Source of the DNA: Diabrotica undecimpunctata
Lineage: Eukaryota > Arthropoda > Insecta > Coleoptera > Chrysomelidae
Direction of reading: 5' to 3'
DNA: 64,000 bases
Assembly: GCF_040954645.1 (NCBI RefSeq)
Contig: NC_092809.1
Location: forward strand, 69,232,141 to 69,296,140
This document shows positions 263-34,480 of the stretch, one piece after another. The translations under genes were made by a program, and so were the position numbers. Positions within the stretch are counted from its first letter, which is position 1. Each line of letters begins with the position of its first letter. Below the pieces are notes generated by a model, which did not search any database, was not told where the DNA came from, and saw only the letters and a list, made by a program, of their open reading frames with translations.

Positions 263-587
263 TATGTATACTAATAATTCTTTTGTAGCTTTTTTTCATT
301 TGCAAAACTTTTGCAAATCTGTTTTGTTTATACAGATAACGACATTGTTTTGTTGACCATAGAAATTAAGATTTATTGCAATCCCATCTCTAGAGTATAT
401 TTATTACAATGCTCTAAAACTAATTTTTTGGTTATTTTTTAGCCTTAGTAGCAATACAAATAAATAAGTAAGTAAATAAGTAATATGCTTTATTGTTAGT
501 GAAAATTGTACAAATTTTATGGACAAAGCTTATAACAATAAGACAAGAAAAAATAAAAAAATCAAAATAAGAATCGTTTGTACTTTT
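1..587. other. AT-rich left edge, no recognisable gene
   Basis: No domain could be recognised here. A short open frame from about position 23 runs straight into the (TA)n block and has no supporting homology that I can name, so I do not call it a gene. Positions 430-587 are AT-rich and lead into the satellite array. Confidence 0.4.
206..260. repeat. (TA)n microsatellite
   Basis: About 27 uninterrupted TA dinucleotides. The same repeat type recurs at least six more times in the window. Confidence 0.97.
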
Positions 588-884
588 AAATAACTGTCTT
601 TTCCTTGTTATTTCGATATACTCTGTACGAGTTCTAGAAACCAATTCGCTAAGAATTTTGCTTAGTTGAAAAGATATGTTGTGGAATGCAAGTTTTAGAT
701 TCCCCATGTCTCTCTTAACACCTTTATCAACGTCTGTTTTTGCCTTGCAATTCTTAGAAGGCACAGATTAAAGCGGAATTCTTGAATTTGGTTTCGAAAA
801 TTAGTCTACGATTTTATTATCAGATGTCGCTACATTGCGTCTATACGAAGCCATGTTATAGTTGCTTCCTAAGACAGAGAAGAA

Positions 885-983
885 TTATTTCACGTTCAGA
901 GCGCTTGCGAAAGCCGTTCTGATGATGCCTATTGGGCTGAAATACGTATAAACGGATGCGCAAGCTCCCTATACGTGAAATAA
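885..983 (+). ncRNA. Type-I hammerhead ribozyme, satellite copy 1
   Basis: Seen in the sequence: CTGATGA core at 919-925; stem II GCC 927-929 with GGC 935-937; GAAA core at 939-942; stem III TAC/GTA at 943-948; cleavage triplet ATA at 948-950 with predicted cleavage after 950. Stem I pairs CCGTT 914-918 with AACGG 951-955, then an internal loop, then GCTTGC 903-908 with GCAAGC 960-965, then another loop, then an 11-bp outer helix 885-895 with 973-983. A long stem I with internal loops and a very short stem III is the architecture known from satellite hammerheads in salamanders, schistosomes and cave crickets. Because stem III has no loop, cleavage probably needs a dimer, in which TACGTA pairs with itself. 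No alternative RNA class explains all the conserved core positions. Confidence 0.85.
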
Positions 984-1282
984 AATCTTAACTGTCTTTT
1001 CCTTGTTATTTCGATATACTCTGTACGAGTACTAGAAACCAATTCGCTAAGAATTTTGCTTAGTTGAAAAGATATGTTGTGGAATGCAAGTTTTAGATTC
1101 CCCATGTCTCTCTTAACACCTTTATCAACGTCTGTTTTTGCCTTGCAATTCTTAGAAGGCACAGATTAAAGCGGAATTCTTGAATTTGGTTTCGAAAATT
1201 AGTCTACGATTTTATTATCAGATGTCGCTACATTGCGTCTATACGAAGCCATGTTATAGTTGCTTCCTAAGACAGAGAACAA

Positions 1283-1381
1283 TTATTTCACGTTCAGAGC
1301 GCTTGCGAAAGCCGTTCTGATGATGCCTATTGGGCTGAAATACGTATAAACGGATGCGCAAGCTCCCTATACGTGAAATAA
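1283..1381 (+). ncRNA. Type-I hammerhead ribozyme, satellite copy 2
   Basis: Same core, stems and cleavage position as the first copy, shifted by 398 bp (predicted cleavage after 1348). The C variant in AGAACAATT lies just outside the outer helix, so the fold is unaffected. Confidence 0.85.
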
Positions 1382-1680
1382 AATCTTAACTGTCTTTTCC
1401 TTGTTATTTCGATATACTCTGTACGAGTACTAGAAACCAATTCGCTAAGAATTTTGCTTAGTTGAAAAGATATGTTGTGGAATGCAAGTTTTAGATTCCC
1501 CATGTCTCTCTTAACACCTTTATCAACGTCTGTTTTTGCCTTGCAATTCTTAGAAGGCACAGATTAAAGCGGAATTCTTGAATTTGGTTTCGAAAATTAG
1601 TCTACGATTTTATTATCAGATGTCGCTACATTGCGTCTATACGAAGCCATGTTATAGTTGCTTCCTAAGACAGAGAACAA

Positions 1681-1779
1681 TTATTTCACGTTCAGAGCGC
1701 TTGCGAAAGCCGTTCTGATGATGCCTATTGGGCTGAAATACGTATAAACGGATGCGCAAGCTCCCTATACGTGAAATAA
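1681..1779 (+). ncRNA. Type-I hammerhead ribozyme, satellite copy 3
   Basis: Same core and stems, shifted by 796 bp from copy 1; predicted cleavage after 1746. All catalytic core positions are intact. Confidence 0.85.
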
Positions 1780-2078
1780 AATCTTAACTGTCTTTTCCTT
1801 GTTATTTCGATATACTCTGTACGAGTACTAGAAACCAATTCGCTAAGAATTTTGCTTAGTTGAAAAGATATGTTGTGGAATGCAAGTTTTAGATTCCCCA
1901 TGTCTCTCTTAACACCTTTATCAACGTCTGTTTTTGCCTTGCAATTCTTAGAAGGCACAGATTAAAGCGGAATTCTTGAATTTGGTTTCGAAAATTAGTC
2001 TACGATTTTATTATCAGATGTCGCTACATTGCGTCTATACGAAGCCATGTTATAGTTGCTTCCTAAGACAGAGAAGAA

Positions 2079-2177
2079 TTATTTCACGTTCAGAGCGCTT
2101 GCGAAAGCCGTTCTGATGATGCCTATTGGGCTGAAATACGTATAAACGGATGCGCAAGCTCCCTATACGTGAAATAA
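2079..2177 (+). ncRNA. Type-I hammerhead ribozyme, satellite copy 4
   Basis: Same core and stems; predicted cleavage after 2144. All catalytic core positions are intact. Confidence 0.85.
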
Positions 2178-2476
2178 AATCTTAACTGTCTTTTCCTTGT
2201 TATTTCGATATACTCTGTACGAGTACTAGAAACCAATTCGCTAAGAATTTTGCTTAGTTGAAAAGATATGTTGTGGAATGCAAGTTTTAGATTCCCCATG
2301 TCTCTCTTAACACCTTTATCAACGTCTGTTTTTGCCTTGCAATTCTTAGAAGGCACAGATTAAAGCGGAATTCTTGAATTTGGTTTCGAAAATTAGTCTA
2401 CGATTTTATTATCAGATGTCGCTACATTGCGTCTATACGAAGCCATGTTATAGTTGCTTCCTAAGACAGAGAAGAA

Positions 2477-2575
2477 TTATTTCACGTTCTGAGCGCTTGC
2501 GAAAGCCGTTCTGATGATGCCTATTGGGCTGAAATACGTATAAACGGATGCGCAAGCTCCCTATACGTGAAATAA
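2477..2575 (+). ncRNA. Type-I hammerhead ribozyme, satellite copy 5
   Basis: Same core and stems; predicted cleavage after 2542. One difference, TTCTGAGC instead of TTCAGAGC, falls in the internal loop of stem I between the outer helix and GCTTGC, so it should not break a helix. Confidence 0.85.
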
Positions 2576-2792
2576 AATCTTAACTGTCTTTTCCTTGTTA
2601 AAAAAAAACAATAAAATTCTTTCAAAGTTAAACATAAAAAATACTACCTGATTATGAACCTACAAACTTCGTAAAATGTATGTAACAAAAAATAAAAATT
2701 AGGAAAGCAGATTAATGAATTAAGGGCTCAGATACTCCACGTCCTTGTACTAAACACTAACCAAATCTGTCATACAGATTTCTCCTTATATT

Positions 2793-3777
2793 TTAGAGAG
2801 CTGGTGTAATGCTTGCAGAGAATTGAAGTATTTTTGCCCTTAATTCGACTAGGTTTGTGGCTCTTTCAAACTGATGCCTATAAATGTTTTCTTTAAGAAA
2901 ACCCCAAAAAAAGAAATCGTTAGGCGCTAAGACACAGGATCTAGCGGGCCATTTAATTGTACCACGTATAATTATCAGTCGATCAGGAAACATTTGATTG
3001 AGGAAGTCAATAGTTGCTCTAGAGCTGTGAGCCGAACACCAATCTTGTTGGAAATAAACCTCCCGAAAATTAACGGGAAGGCGTCGAACTGCCGGAATGA
3101 TCTCATTTTGTAAAACTTGTAAATATTTGGACCCGTTTAGGTTTTCGTCGATAAAAAATGGACCGACAATATGGTCGCCTAACACCCCAGTCCAAACATT
3201 TAACTTTTTCGAATGCTGAGTTCGCATTGCAACACTGAGGTGCTTATTTTTCCGAGAATAATACCTTGCAACGGATGGATTGTGTCTTTTATATAATGAA
3301 AATGAAGATTTGTCAAAAAATAAAATATTTTTTAAAAAGTGTACATTTTCATTCTGTTTATTTAACATAAATTCACAAAACTCCATCCGCCTAAAGTTAT
3401 CTTCCGGAAACAGTTCTTGTGTTGGTTGTATCTTAAAACAGTGATAACCATTCCTTTTGAGAACTTGCTGGACAGTTCGAGCATTCACGTTATCTTATCT
3501 AGCAATAGTTGTACACTATTGCAGGGTTCACTAGCTTCCACAAAAGCACAAATACAAATATCAATATCCCTGTTTTAAGGCTCCTTATCGACAGGTCTAA
3601 CACGTGGTTCATTACCTTCATGACACTTTGTATGTGTAAACAACTGTTTACACATCCCGAAGTTTGAAAAGGTTTAATGGTATTTTTAACTGTTGTTACA
3701 CAGGGTGAGGGTCTATTTTCAAAGGCAACAATAAATAAATTAATTAATTCGCGTATCGAATGACATGAAAGTACCAT
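2793..3777 (-). pseudogene. Broken mariner/Tc1-superfamily transposase
   Basis: The frame from 3488 down to 2793 encodes the catalytic half of an IS630-Tc1-mariner transposase: a first acidic motif FFDKSSF, the WTGVLGDHIVGPFFID block, the second Asp in QQDWCSAHSS and a third-Asp region ending LAPNDFFFWG. The usual SPDL before the third Asp is altered to SCVL. The N-terminal helix-turn-helix half continues upstream (3777-3489) but in other frames, so at least one frameshift separates it from the catalytic part. Length (231 codons plus the N-terminal part) is near the family norm of about 340. Terminal inverted repeats were not resolved. This is a decayed, non-autonomous copy; family assignment is firm, subfamily is not. 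Confidence 0.85.
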
Positions 3778-18649: not shown

Positions 18650-18710
18650 CTTTTCAGCTATCACTGATGATGGTATAAAGCATACCGAAATATATTTGAT
18701 TACTCAAACA
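18650..18710 (+). ncRNA. Hammerhead-like motif, probably from a Penelope or similar retroelement terminus
   Basis: CTGATGA at 18664-18670, stem II GGTAT 18672-18676 with ATACC 18682-18686, GAAA at 18687-18690, a 2-bp loopless stem III TA/TA, then TT at 18695-18696, and stem I ATCA 18660-18663 with TGAT 18697-18700. The core is complete and stem II is perfect, but stem I is only 4 bp before it fails, so activity is doubtful. Confidence 0.55.
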
Positions 18711-24185: not shown

Positions 24186-24579
24186 GATGAGAGAGTTGAT
24201 CACATAATTCTTTTGGGCAGGATAGTGGTGTGATGAATGTGGACAAGTGTATATTGGCGAAACTGGTCGTTCCGTCAAAACTCGGATTCAAGAGCATCAA
24301 AGATGCATTCGATCAGGTCTTTTCTCCCATTCTGCAGTTGCAGAACACTGCCAAGAAACCGGTCATTCCATATTGTTCGAAAAAACCCATATTATTTCTA
24401 AGAGCCCCTTCTTTTATTCCAGGAAAATCCGCGAATCTCTAGAGATCCGAAAAAATCCACATAATATCAATCGAGAGGAAGGATACTACTTGTCTCCCAT
24501 CTGGAATCTCAGTCTAGAGCCGCCGTCCGGTCCCGCTACCACGATGCAGCCACATGATTGGCCAGCGCGCGCTTCTTGA
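24186..24579 (+). pseudogene. Penelope GIY-YIG endonuclease domain
   Basis: The frame at 24247-24579 has YIGETGRSVKTRIQEH, the YIG half of the GIY-YIG motif plus the conserved Arg helix, followed by SAVAEHCQETGHSI, the family's conserved His block, and FYSRKIRESLEIRKNPHNIN with REEGYYLSPIW at the end. That final Glu-His-Asn pattern is typical of the endonuclease C-terminus in Penelope-like proteins. A CGQ-type Cys precedes YIG, but the matching upstream Cys and the GIY residues are degraded by a frameshift near 24230. The domain therefore lacks its start and the RT. Confidence 0.9.
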
Positions 24580-24632
24580 CGTTCGTGTCACGGAGTGTGC
24601 CGATACGTCCCGACACGACAGGTCACCGCGAC

Positions 24633-24640
24633 TATAAATA
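24633..24640 (+). promoter_or_regulatory. TATA box in the Penelope terminal repeat
   Basis: TATAAATA in a GC-rich context about 25-35 bp upstream of a TTCACTCC-like possible initiator near 24667. It is the likely internal promoter for the element downstream. Confidence 0.55.
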
Positions 24641-24738
24641 GAGCGGTAGCGGAGTAATCGTCGGATTCACTCCCCGCCTCTCGACGCGTTAGTGTTCTGA
24701 GCTGTTGGACGTGAATCCCTGTCCTGGCATTTGGTTTT

Positions 24739-24865
24739 CACCTCTGGCTGCGTTAAGTAGTTGAGTTACTGTGACCAATTGCCCATCTTGGTAGTTAGTA
24801 TTCGCCTCTGGTTGCGTTGAGTAACTGAGTTACCGTTGCTAACTACCCATCTTCCTGTCTTTTGT
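24739..24865 (+). repeat. Tandem duplication of about 64 bp in the Penelope terminus
   Basis: The block CACCTCTGGCTGCGTTAAGT...CCCATCTT repeats at about 24803 as CGCCTCTGGTTGCGTTGAGT...CCCATCTT with moderate divergence. Confidence 0.8.
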
Positions 24866-24883
24866 TTTCTTTTTCCTTTTTTT

Positions 24884-24932
24884 GTTCTCCTGAAGAAGCT
24901 ACATACAATTGTAGCGAAACGTCGAGATGAAC
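24884..24932 (+). ncRNA. Minimal hammerhead ribozyme of the Penelope element
   Basis: CTGAAGA at 24890-24896; stem II GCTAC 24898-24902 with GTAGC 24911-24915; GAAA at 24916-24919; one-pair stem III C/G; cleavage triplet GTC at 24921-24923 with predicted cleavage after 24923; stem I TCTC with GAGA, then a 2-nt bulge, then GTT with AAC. Penelope-like elements are known to carry such minimal hammerheads in their terminal repeats, and the adjacent GIY-YIG ORF supports the assignment. Confidence 0.85.
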
Positions 24933-28525: not shown

Positions 28526-29191
28526 TTGAGTTCAACAAACCCGGCTTCGAAACTCAACCGAAGACAAAGACAGAGAAAACTAAGAATCGGCACATGGAAT
28601 GTGCAGAGCTGGAGAACAAAAGCCAGTGAAGTAAAATCAGAATTCGAAAAGATGAATCTCGATATCCTCGTCACAACGGAAACAAAAAATAAAGGAAACG
28701 GCACGGAAAGAATAGGGGAACTAATCCATTGTTGGAGCGGAGTAGAAAAGAAAGACCGCGCAAAAGCTGGAGTTGGAATTCTACTAAAGAAGAAATGGGA
28801 AAAATCTATAGACGATTGGGAACCCATAAACGAGAGAATTGCCAAACTGAAAATCAAGATGTATGGCAGAGAAATTATAATACTAGCAACATACGGTCCA
28901 ACGGAAGACAGTCCAGCCAATGAGAAAGAACGATTTATCGAACAACTTCAAGAACAAATGGATAAGAGAAAACCTAAACAAGAAATAATAATAGTGGGGG
29001 ATCTAAATGGAAGAGTCGGAAGAAAAGACAATGACAGAACAGTTGGTCCATTTGGAGAAGACACAATTAACGACAACGGAGAAAGATTGGTAGAACTATG
29101 TGAAGTAAATGATTTGAAAATTATGAACGGATTTTACAAACACAAAAATATACAAGACTCAAGAGACAAGAAAACTAAGATCCATTATTGA
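28526..29191 (+). CDS. LINE apurinic-like endonuclease portion
   Basis: The 221-codon frame carries the exonuclease-endonuclease-phosphatase fold: LRIGTWNVQSW at residues 19-29 (N-terminal Asn motif), LDILVTTETKNKGNG with the catalytic Glu, ATYGPTED, and the Asp/Asn motif IIIVGDLNGRVGRKD near residues 155-170, followed by LCEVNDLKIMNGFY. The final SDH motif lies beyond the frameshift, in the next frame (GTDHKLVVAWMEF at the start of the RT ORF). The true start may be downstream of the first ATG. The C-terminal residues after about 29140 are out of frame. It nicks target DNA for retrotransposition in this family. Confidence 0.88.
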   Translation: MSSTNPASKLNRRQRQRKLRIGTWNVQSWRTKASEVKSEFEKMNLDILVTTETKNKGNGTERIGELIHCWSGVEKKDRAKAGVGILLKKKWEKSIDDWEPINERIAKLKIKMYGREIIILATYGPTEDSPANEKERFIEQLQEQMDKRKPKQEIIIVGDLNGRVGRKDNDRTVGPFGEDTINDNGERLVELCEVNDLKIMNGFYKHKNIQDSRDKKTKIHY

Positions 29192-29201
29192 CTACATTAT
29201 C

Positions 29202-31430
29202 ATGAACCACAAAAGCTCCATCAAAGTGAAAGACATCAGAGTGAAAAGAGGGGCAGAGTGTGGAACAGATCACAAACTTGTGGTGGCATGGATGGAATTC
29301 CCCTATATCTGGACAAAACAAAAACATACATCGATTGTTACAACGGGAACGACAATAAATGAAAAGAGGCTCAAATTACATCTATTGCAGGAAGAATTAA
29401 TAAAAGATTTATACAAAAGAAGACTAGACCAAAAACTAGAAGAATTCAGATATGACACGTTAGATGAAATGCATGAACACATAAAAACCTGCCTGATTTC
29501 AGCGGCCTTAGAAGCTCTTGGAGAAGACGACCAAAGGAACACCCATCAGAATATCAAATTAAGGGAAGACACATTGAAATGCATAAAAGAAAAGAAGAAA
29601 CTACACATAAAATACCTAAACACCAAAAAACAGGAAGACTTAGACCTATATAGAGCGAAAAACAGAGAGGTAAAGAAAAGAGTAACAAATGAAAAGAACG
29701 AACGATGGGAACAAGCATGCACAGAGATAGAACGACATATCGGAGGAACGAGAAATTCAGAATCATGGCGAATATTAAAAGCACTTCAACGAAATAAGAC
29801 AGAGAAAACCCAGATCGGCAAAATTAGTGAAAACGAGTGGCAAGAATACTACGTAGAACTACTTACAGAAAACCGTCCCCAATTTCAGGAAGAGAATATA
29901 GAACATGCAGGAAATGGGGCATACGACCAGATAGAAATAAGCCTGGCAGAAGTTAAGAGAGCAATCAAGACATTGAAGAACAAAAAAGCCAAAGGACCCG
30001 GAGGAATACCAAACGAACTAATTAAAAACGGAACGGAAAAGTTATTCCGCATGCTACATAGAATGTTCGAAAGAGGACTAAATGGAGAAGAAATACCTGC
30101 GGAATGGACACAAGCATACATCACATCCATACATAAGAAAGGAAACAGGAAAAAATGTGAAAACTATAGAGGAATTAGTTTAATATCGTCGGTAGGTAGA
30201 CTTTACGGGAAAATTATTAAAGAAAAACTAGAAACTGAAATAATAGGAAAAATTGGAGAAGACCAAGCAGGGTTCACAGTAGGAAAATCATGCCTAGATC
30301 ATACGTACACATTAGAACAACTGATAGAGAAGAAAATGGCAAAAGGTAGACCGGTCCATCTGGCCTTTGTTGATCTAAAGAAAGCATATGACTCAATACC
30401 TAGAGTCAAATTATGGGAAGCAATGAATGATCTCGTAATCCGACAAACACTAATAAAAGCAGTTAAAGCACTATACAAAAAAAACAAAGTAGCTATTAAA
30501 TGTGGAAATAAAGCCTACAATCCATTTAAGACGACAAAAGGACTTCTACAAGGCTGTGCTACGTCCCCTACTCTGTTTAAAATATTCTTGGAAAAGACAC
30601 TCAAACCATGGAGGAAAAAGTGCGAAGGAATGGGCATACCAGTAAGAGACGAATACCTATACACCTTAAGTTTTGCCGACGATCAAGTAGTCATCGCACA
30701 AGATGAAGAAGATCTCAGCTTTATGCTCAGAAAACTAGAAGAAGAATATAAAAACAACGGAATGGAAATAAACTTAGAGAAAACCGAATACCTAACAACA
30801 GAAAACAAGGATATGAGAAACCTAGAGATAGACGAGGGAAGACAAATAAATGGAACAGATAAATTCAAGTATTTAGGAACCATAATATCGAACCAGGGAA
30901 CAACAGAAGAAGATATAAACAACAGACTGAGACAAACAAGAAACTGTATAAGACAACTAAACTCAGTGTTGTGGAATAAGAACATTACGATAAAGACAAA
31001 AAAGAGAATATATAACACCCTGACAAGAAGTATCCTGACATATGGGTCCGAAAACTGGACAATAAACAAGAGAAATAGAGGTAGAATAAGAGCAGTAGAA
31101 ATGGAGTTCCTGAGGAGAAGCTGTAGACTTACAAAAAGAGACAGAATTGAAAACGCAGAGATTAAGCGGAGAATGGGAGTGCAATCAGACATAATCGACT
31201 ATATAGAGGAGAGGAAACTATCCTGGTACGGCCACGTCAGAAGAGCGGACAGAGGACGCTGGATAAACAAAATCACAGAATGGAGCCCGATTGGAAGAAG
31301 AAAGAGAGGAAGACCCCAAAGGTCATTCAGAGATGAAATCGACGAGGCTATGGAGAAAAGAACGCTGCGAGATGGAGACTGGAATGACAGGGAAAATTGG
31401 AGAAAACGGTTGAGTGAAGGAAGACAGTGA
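29202..31430 (+). CDS. LINE reverse transcriptase, intact 742-codon frame
   Basis: Starts with the last endonuclease block (GTDHKLVVAWM, about residues 25-35), then a linker. The RT follows: KKAKGPGGIPNELIKNGTEK at about residue 265, SIHKKGNRKKCENYRGISLI, EDQAGFTVGKSCLDHTYTLE, the first catalytic Asp in FVDLKKAYDSIPR, TTKGLLQGCATSPTLFKIF and the catalytic LSFADDQVVIA at about residue 490. Next come EINLEKTEYL and FKYLGTIIS, and the C-terminal LTYGSENWTINKR, LSWYGHVRRADRGRW and GRRKRGRPQRSFRDEI. All key residues are present. There is no RNase H or zinc knuckle, consistent with an RTE-like element. The frame is open throughout; only the upstream frameshift prevents a full ORF. Confidence 0.93.
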   Translation: MNHKSSIKVKDIRVKRGAECGTDHKLVVAWMEFPYIWTKQKHTSIVTTGTTINEKRLKLHLLQEELIKDLYKRRLDQKLEEFRYDTLDEMHEHIKTCLISAALEALGEDDQRNTHQNIKLREDTLKCIKEKKKLHIKYLNTKKQEDLDLYRAKNREVKKRVTNEKNERWEQACTEIERHIGGTRNSESWRILKALQRNKTEKTQIGKISENEWQEYYVELLTENRPQFQEENIEHAGNGAYDQIEISLAEVKRAIKTLKNKKAKGPGGIPNELIKNGTEKLFRMLHRMFERGLNGEEIPAEWTQAYITSIHKKGNRKKCENYRGISLISSVGRLYGKIIKEKLETEIIGKIGEDQAGFTVGKSCLDHTYTLEQLIEKKMAKGRPVHLAFVDLKKAYDSIPRVKLWEAMNDLVIRQTLIKAVKALYKKNKVAIKCGNKAYNPFKTTKGLLQGCATSPTLFKIFLEKTLKPWRKKCEGMGIPVRDEYLYTLSFADDQVVIAQDEEDLSFMLRKLEEEYKNNGMEINLEKTEYLTTENKDMRNLEIDEGRQINGTDKFKYLGTIISNQGTTEEDINNRLRQTRNCIRQLNSVLWNKNITIKTKKRIYNTLTRSILTYGSENWTINKRNRGRIRAVEMEFLRRSCRLTKRDRIENAEIKRRMGVQSDIIDYIEERKLSWYGHVRRADRGRWINKITEWSPIGRRKRGRPQRSFRDEIDEAMEKRTLRDGDWNDRENWRKRLSEGRQ

Positions 31431-34034: not shown

Positions 34035-34480
34035 AATGATATATTGTATGTACCTATTGTATCTTTGCTCCAGTTGGTCCAGTCGTGAAGTACAGCGCCT
34101 CAAATAACCAATAAAATATAATAAAGACAGAAAAATCAAATACAGCAGCATGTCAAAAAGACCTTAGTTATATATCTTCGTTTCTATAAGTCCAATCGTG
34201 ACGAACAGTACCTTAAATGATAGGATTTAATCAATAGAATACAACGAAATAGAAAAATCAATTACAGCAACATGTCAAAAGGACCTTAATCACGTATCTT
34301 CGGTGCTATTAGTCCAATCGTGACGTACAGTAACTCAAATGATAGAATTTAACTAATAGAATACAATGAGGCAGAAAAATTAAACACAGCAGTATGTCAA
34401 ACGTGCCTAAGTTATGTATTTTCAGTCCTATTAGTCCAATCGTGACGTACAGTATTAATCATATAATGACATTTAATATA
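34035..34480 (+). repeat. 122-bp tandem repeat, about 3.5 units
   Basis: The marker GTCCAATCGTGACGTACAGT (or a close variant) occurs at 34077, 34190, 34312 and 34434, that is with spacings of 113, 122 and 122 bp. Each unit also contains ATGATAG-ATTTAA, AATAGAATACAA, CAGCA-CATGTCAAA and ACCTTA. Units are 80-90% alike by eye. Confidence 0.9.

Follow-up and report, generated by a model that had tools for sequence, protein, structure and literature searches.

The analysed window comprises 64,000 nucleotides (64 kb) of contig NC_092809.1 of the leaf beetle Diabrotica undecimpunctata; the features of a tandem array located in it are listed in Table 1. The array was detected with Tandem Repeats Finder at 591-2600 on the plus strand with a period of 398 bp, 5.1 copies and 99% matches. 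The five 398-bp units with an unchanged core (CTGATGA, stem II, GAAA and ATA in each) named in a preliminary description of this DNA were confirmed. At its 3′ end, the array closes with a 20-bp partial unit (2581-2600) corresponding to the first 20 bp of the unit. The G + C content of the array is 37.4%. No ORF of at least 100 aa, the minimum length of the search, lies within the array, and the one ORF overlapping it (432-764, minus strand) crosses its left end. In the remainder of the 64-kb window no further copy of the 398-bp unit could be found, and for the flanks of the array one weak similarity over 46 nt turned up in another part of it.

Table 1. Features of the 398-bp tandem array, positions being counted from the first nucleotide of the window.
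Feature	Position	Strand	Remarks
Tandem array, 398-bp unit, 5.05 copies	591..2600	+	20-bp partial unit at 2581-2600
Hammerhead 1, extended stem I	885..983	+	helices of 11 bp (outer, 885-895/973-983), 7 bp (middle, 903-909/959-965) and 5 bp (inner, 914-918/951-955)
Hammerhead 1, match by model R1	913-956	+	covariance search
Hammerhead 2	1283..1381	+	pairing; model R1 match 1311-1354
Hammerhead 3	1681..1779	+	pairing; model R1 match 1709-1752
Hammerhead 4	2079..2177	+	pairing; model R1 match 2107-2150
Hammerhead 5	2477..2575	+	T in place of A at 2490 (stem I, outer internal loop); model R1 match 2505-2548
Core box CTGATGA, copy 1	919..925	+	other copies at 1317, 1715, 2113, 2511
Stem-loop II, UGCCUAUUGGGCU	926..938	+	mismatched U-U (10.1/11.1) followed by 3 G-C pairs; an additional U-G is possible
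GAAA and stem-loop III	939..949	+	AUACGUAU from A942: 2 bp, palindromic ACGU tetraloop
Predicted cleavage after ATA	950/951	+	also 1348/1349, 1746/1747, 2144/2145, 2542/2543; NUH rule
One predicted 398-nt monomer RNA	951..1348	+	as circle MFE -102.4 kcal/mol, 62% paired

Across the five whole units, 3 of the 398 unit positions are variable (43, 292 and 308). The variants at 43 and 308 belong to units 1 and 5, respectively, and at position 292 units 1, 4 and 5 have a G and units 2 and 3 a C. Units 2 and 3 are identical; units 1, 4 and 5 differ from one another and from units 2 and 3. The mean pairwise difference amounts to 0.35%, which agrees with the young age that had been proposed for the array. 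The near identity of the units, complete between units 2 and 3, is what an assembly artefact that turned a single copy into a tandem layout would leave behind, but the mutual differences between units 1, 4, 5 and the pair 2/3 make such an origin very improbable. The pattern at position 292 would fit rolling reverse transcription of one circle, resulting in identical units, followed by a change in one unit and its local duplication or conversion; it could equally stem from a mixed template or from two changes that occurred independently.

A target-site duplication of 6-8 nt was not found in the flanks compared. Among the 5-nt words common to both flanks, only TTAAA (586-590/2598-2602) directly adjoins both ends of the array, and part of this word belongs to the unit. 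A location of the array within the inverted repeats of a transposon was rejected, as no enclosing arms were present among the 25 longest of 83 repeat pairs. The scan for internal Pol III promoters, carried out with consensus boxes and without a control, gave a best B box of 8 of 11 positions and a best A box of 11 of 12 on the minus strand.

Several other repetitive elements could be annotated in the window. Just downstream of the array, a transposase-like ORF (2793-3488, minus strand) is of the Tc/mariner type according to the Pfam labels of its 16 relatives (many PF16087, some PF13358 or PF01498), one of which belongs to Aromia moschata, also a beetle (52% over 72%); the Pfam search with the ORF itself gave no match. 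A LINE at 28526-31430 (plus strand) is split into two ORFs, a 221-aa endonuclease part matching Exo_endo_phos and a 742-aa reverse transcriptase part (29202-31430) matching RVT_1 (E 1e-37). Among the 120 relatives listed for the latter is P0092 from Diabrotica undecimpunctata, which tblastn aligned to the window in two pieces, with 304 identities in 358 columns including 44 gaps (304/314 without gaps) and 101 identities in 121 columns including 6 gaps (101/115 without gaps). An ORF at 24247-24579 (plus strand) contains the peptide VYIGETGRS, which we take to be a GIY-YIG-like signature; GIY-YIG was not matched in Pfam up to E 10, and three relatives of the ORF carry no informative names. About 310 bp after it, the sequence CTGAAGA-hairpin-GAAACGTC is found (24890-24925, plus strand), similar to the minimal hammerheads of Penelope-like elements. 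The region 24247-24925 looks like the remnant of a Penelope-like element and is possibly a relative of the helper of retrozymes (see below). A second tandem repeat (34105-34454) has a period of 122 bp, 2.9 copies and 81% matches.

Anatomy of the hammerhead motif

An identical type I hammerhead is present in each of the five whole units, as the preliminary description had stated: the pairing was found in all of them, and they were recovered both by a descriptor and as the top five matches of the covariance model R1. Three helices are arranged with stem I open, which defines type I, and the CUGANGA and GAAA boxes, the A15.1-U16.1 pair and an NUH triplet before the cut occur in all five units. 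Every CTGATGA is followed by the same stem II, GAAA, TACGTA and TA.

Stem I is indeed three-part in five of five units, including the 11-bp outer helix reported previously. Its inner helix of 5 bp (CCGUU/AACGG) is followed by an internal loop (AAAG/AUG, loop 1), a middle helix of 7 bp (GCUUGCG/CGCAAGC), a 7 × 7 internal loop and the outer helix of 11 bp (UUAUUUCACGU/ACGUGAAAUAA). Loop 2 consists of UAUUG, and the eight nucleotides of stem III (AUACGUAU) are self-complementary. The site of hammerhead cleavage is governed by the rule NUH. The predicted cuts are spaced 398 nt apart, so that four whole 398-nt monomers would be contained in the array.

The G10.1-C11.1 pair, near-universal in hammerheads and not strictly required, is absent from the array, where all five units have U-U instead. 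According to PMC3088659, a natural stem II can begin with U10.1-U11.1, a mispair supporting more activity than others. Because of this mismatch and of its two-bp stem III, the array hammerhead is not of textbook form; the preliminary description called it complete and did not mention the mismatch.

Detection by descriptor and covariance models

A hammerhead descriptor (at least 4 bp in stem I, at least 3 bp in stem II, and a short stem III whose loop may be as small as 2 nt) detected five loci in the 64-kb window, all within the array. Applied to 474 random 64-kb windows generated by a first-order Markov model, it detected six loci, equal to 0.013 expected per window. The descriptor was composed after the motif had been seen, and the outer 7-bp and 11-bp helices were not demanded. 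For this reason, a test from other data was sought in the form of a phage-based covariance model. This model, R1, was built from 38 aligned type I hammerheads of IMG/VR phage contigs, 10 of which had been obtained with a pattern fixing G-C at 10.1/11.1; of the pairs at this position, 37 are G-C and one is U-U (L055). In the alignment, the helices pair in 99.1% of the cells and 13 of 15 pairs have changes on both sides, which is not independent proof of the pairing, because the phage sequences were chosen for it.

In an unfiltered search of both strands of the 64 kb, the five array copies were the top five matches of R1 with 21.4 bits and a rough E-value of 2.5e-4 each. The sixth match reached 10.6 bits, and 28 matches were listed at E up to 10. 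The R1 alignment spans positions 1-50, and non-standard pairs are confined to 10.1/11.1 and to the outermost of the six stem I pairs. R1 leaves out the stem III loop of the array and scores all eight letters of AUACGUAU as paired; as such loopless pairing is impossible in a hairpin, the score is somewhat generous for a single motif. The stem III geometry scored by the model could be formed by two molecules, not by one hairpin.

Searches with Rfam revealed no hammerhead, neither in the whole window at gathering cut-offs nor up to E 10 in stretches of 2,201 nt or 106 nt. The refuting result named in the preliminary description, no match to any hammerhead covariance model, was thus obtained with Rfam but not with R1. 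For the 106 nt, five Rfam matches were listed, of which the best, mir-1597, reached 24.3 of the required 93 bits on the minus strand and 18.7 bits on the plus strand; this match is explained by the long hairpin. The gathering cut-offs of the models RF00163 and RF00008 are 34 (type I) and 48.5 (type III), and with them none of four textbook phage hammerheads (L018, L029, L037 and L044) could be found. In E-value mode all four were found with 28.4-39.9 bits, together with an extra one in L044 at 44.7 bits. As a fifth control, the small phage locus L048 was discarded since it failed the hammerhead descriptor. From the Rfam type III model, a phage hammerhead sharing the U-U mismatch and otherwise of textbook form obtained 16 bits (E 3.6). 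After missing four of four textbook controls at gathering, Rfam was dropped as the decisive test, and in the light of these controls its silence shows the motif to be off-consensus more than absent. The Rfam hammerhead cut-offs can overlook motifs like that of the array. Between RF00163 and RF00008, the gathering scores shut out textbook-form phage hammerheads at 28.4-30.5 and 39.9-44.7 bits.

A chance resemblance, in which the hairpin of an ordinary tandem repeat merely looks like a hammerhead, would account for the missing Rfam match, but is hardly credible in view of the few descriptor loci in random sequence, obtained even without demanding the outer 7-bp and 11-bp helices, the E-value of R1, rough as it is, the strong fold of the region (z -5.13) and the failure of Rfam with textbook hammerheads at gathering.

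Of 12 matches to the box pattern, seven lie outside the array (7593, 7597, 13768, 18664, 24890, 32141 and 59516); none of them agrees with the descriptor, and R1 has no match at these boxes at E up to 10. One of them (18664-18700, plus strand) consists of CTGATGA, a 5-bp hairpin, GAAA and then UAUAUU. A decayed hammerhead is conceivable here, UAUA being its palindromic loop, but neither the descriptor nor R1 reports it.

On the phage side, L055:2535-2583 (plus strand) is a type I hammerhead with a U-U at 10.1/11.1 like that of the array and is textbook otherwise. Single stretches of 9-14 kb of phage contigs hold several type I hammerheads with dissimilar stem II sequences: seven distinct ones were counted in L097 and four each or more in L108, L094 and L077. 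The core pattern had no match in bacterial, archaeal and viral contig collections, nor did a relaxed core pattern in the bacterial/archaeal collection, which says little on insects. Fourteen viral loci share the U-U stem II together with its flanking pairs, but in none of them did stems I and III seem to fit on visual inspection; Rfam at gathering found no hammerhead in any of the 14, a weak result given its missed textbook controls. Three viral contigs detected by a relaxed pattern with GAAATACGTATA were rejected as well, as visual inspection showed fitting stems I and II in none of them.

Folding of single motifs, neighbouring motifs and circles

The fold of the 106-nt region is more stable than that of any of 200 shuffled sequences, which is explained by the long stem I. 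In the 44-nt context as well as in the 103-nt context, the hammerhead fold of a single motif is less stable by 4.7 kcal/mol than the MFE fold, in which nucleotides of the core are paired with those of stem III and the core is buried. Among the 38 phage controls, 34 have no energy gap, and the largest gap is 3.5 kcal/mol. Due to the competing fold, the U-U mismatch and the two-bp stem III, efficient self-cleavage of a lone copy is not to be assumed. In terms of computed energies the gap argues against a strong single-copy ribozyme; it is no proof of inactivity, since folding energies ignore the tertiary core. The processing into monomers, perhaps circularized, that had been suggested earlier is kept as the best reading of the array, without the assumption that single copies cleave efficiently.

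Between two molecules, stem III would form a duplex of 8 bp with a computed energy of -6.5 kcal/mol. Cutting by paired neighbouring motifs via the palindromic stem III seems likelier than cutting by single motifs. As described in PMC7229834, axolotl motifs alone cut weakly (6% and 22% in an hour) and dimeric constructs much better, and a two-bp stem III with a tetraloop is called similar to invertebrate hammerheads; single coral repeats cut efficiently and mussel repeats too, more slowly. In view of this published cutting by single invertebrate repeats, the dimer step is a leaning here, not a result.

As a circle, the predicted 398-nt monomer has a lower MFE than all of 100 shuffled circles (mean -79.0 kcal/mol, sd 5.1). 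Its paired fraction is close to the 60% (sd 3) of the shuffles; retrozyme RNA is given as paired 'above 70%' in PMC4918200.

The array as a candidate animal retrozyme

Animal non-LTR retrozymes are a named class of elements, expressed as circles of around 170-400 nt and stated to occur in insects (PMC7229834). In PMC4918200, PMC7229834 and PMC7761336, retrozymes are described as tandem non-coding repeats of around 150-450 bp with a G + C content below 50% and a type I hammerhead in each unit; linear and circular RNAs were found in the animals tested, the circles being most likely closed by tRNA ligase, and Penelope-like elements (PLEs) or LINEs are the suspected helpers. Many genomic copies at dispersed sites and a stable monomer with a high degree of self-pairing are further traits of the class. 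The array shares with this class its unit size, tandem arrangement, hammerhead per unit, low G + C content and lack of an ORF of at least 100 aa. Poorer is the fit of the flanks, with the ambiguous 5-nt TTAAA only, and of the circle, whose paired fraction is near that of shuffled sequences. For Nematostella repeats, target-site duplications of 15 bp are given in PMC4918200; in the retrozyme class such duplications exceed 4 bp where they occur, and the array differs in having no clear one.

The likening of the array to hammerhead satellites in the preliminary description was not wrong, but the animal non-LTR retrozymes of coral, mussel and axolotl (Cervera and de la Pena 2020, PMC7229834) are the more fitting comparison, with tandem repeats of 150-450 bp, low G + C content and one type I hammerhead per unit. 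Their sequences are called species-specific there, and the array is likened to them by its described features. The axolotl hammerhead HHR_Amex2, from a repeat of 353 nt compared to 398 bp in the array, likewise starts its stem II with a U-U and caps a stem III of only two bp with a tetraloop; its monomer is weak (22% after one hour) and its dimer better, according to the same paper. The pDo500 satellite of Dolichopoda cave crickets (PMC2837043) is also an insect repeat with a hammerhead in each unit, for which a single and a double (dimeric) mode were proposed, the double one with an extra stem 0; its unit has about 500 bp and the satellite is common to 12 species, whereas the array has five units of 398 bp. 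For the minimal hammerheads of Penelope-like elements, type I topology and dimeric action are proposed in PMC7761336 and PMC11167929. They are described as lacking stem III or the loop contacts, whereas the array has a two-bp stem III and a much extended stem I; the array repeat is without a long ORF, and Penelope-like elements are regarded as a possible supplier of reverse transcriptase.

A plain satellite, spread and homogenized solely by unequal exchange and carrying the hammerhead as an inherited, now weak or inactive passenger, would be in line with the U-U mismatch, the competing fold, the missing clear target-site duplication and the variant common to units 2 and 3, as local duplication or conversion would give. 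However, all five units agree in the core, in stems II and III and in each of the three helices of stem I, an observation that says little because only three sites vary at all, and the array is short, sharply bounded and located among several transposon remnants, not in a long satellite block. We regard this origin as unlikely. Most probably, the array represents a single insertion of an animal retrozyme that is neither autonomous nor coding. Judged from its sequence, the hammerhead repeat family is real and belongs to a known class, and its predicted ribozyme is off-consensus.

For the retrozyme, the following cycle is proposed. Read-through transcription of the array would result in a multimeric RNA, in which the hammerheads, more likely as neighbour pairs joined via stem III than singly, would cut after ATA every 398 nt. 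A tRNA ligase of the host would close the monomers, which would have 5′-OH and 2′,3′-cyclic-phosphate ends, to circles. The reverse transcriptase of an autonomous element (PLE or LINE) would then be used to copy the circle repeatedly into tandem cDNA, which would be inserted elsewhere in the genome. Later unequal exchange or conversion within the array may have produced the C at unit position 292 in units 2 and 3 only.

In the openly licensed literature, searched by titles and the beginnings of abstracts, no hammerhead repeat of Diabrotica was found, and the passages seen of PMC11722881 mention Diabrotica only in an unrelated context. Within this literature, the 398-bp sequence family may be undescribed, and the earlier suggestion of a new family stands for this sequence family only.

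A further, rather doubtful extension of the retrozyme reading is a conditional hammerhead, in which the core would be buried in the single-copy circle and tandem neighbours would pair via the palindromic stem III and cut. If true, this would amount to a built-in switch holding the circle closed, and it would explain how circles avoid being cut again, a question raised in PMC7229834. The array adds a probable leaf-beetle family to the retrozymes, a class for which the mobilizing enzyme and the protection of the circles are still open questions. With its clean layout, intact motifs, a stem II starting with U-U and a palindromic stem III of 8 nt, it is suited for a direct comparison with the axolotl hammerheads in terms of cleavage as monomer and dimer and of the stability of the circles.
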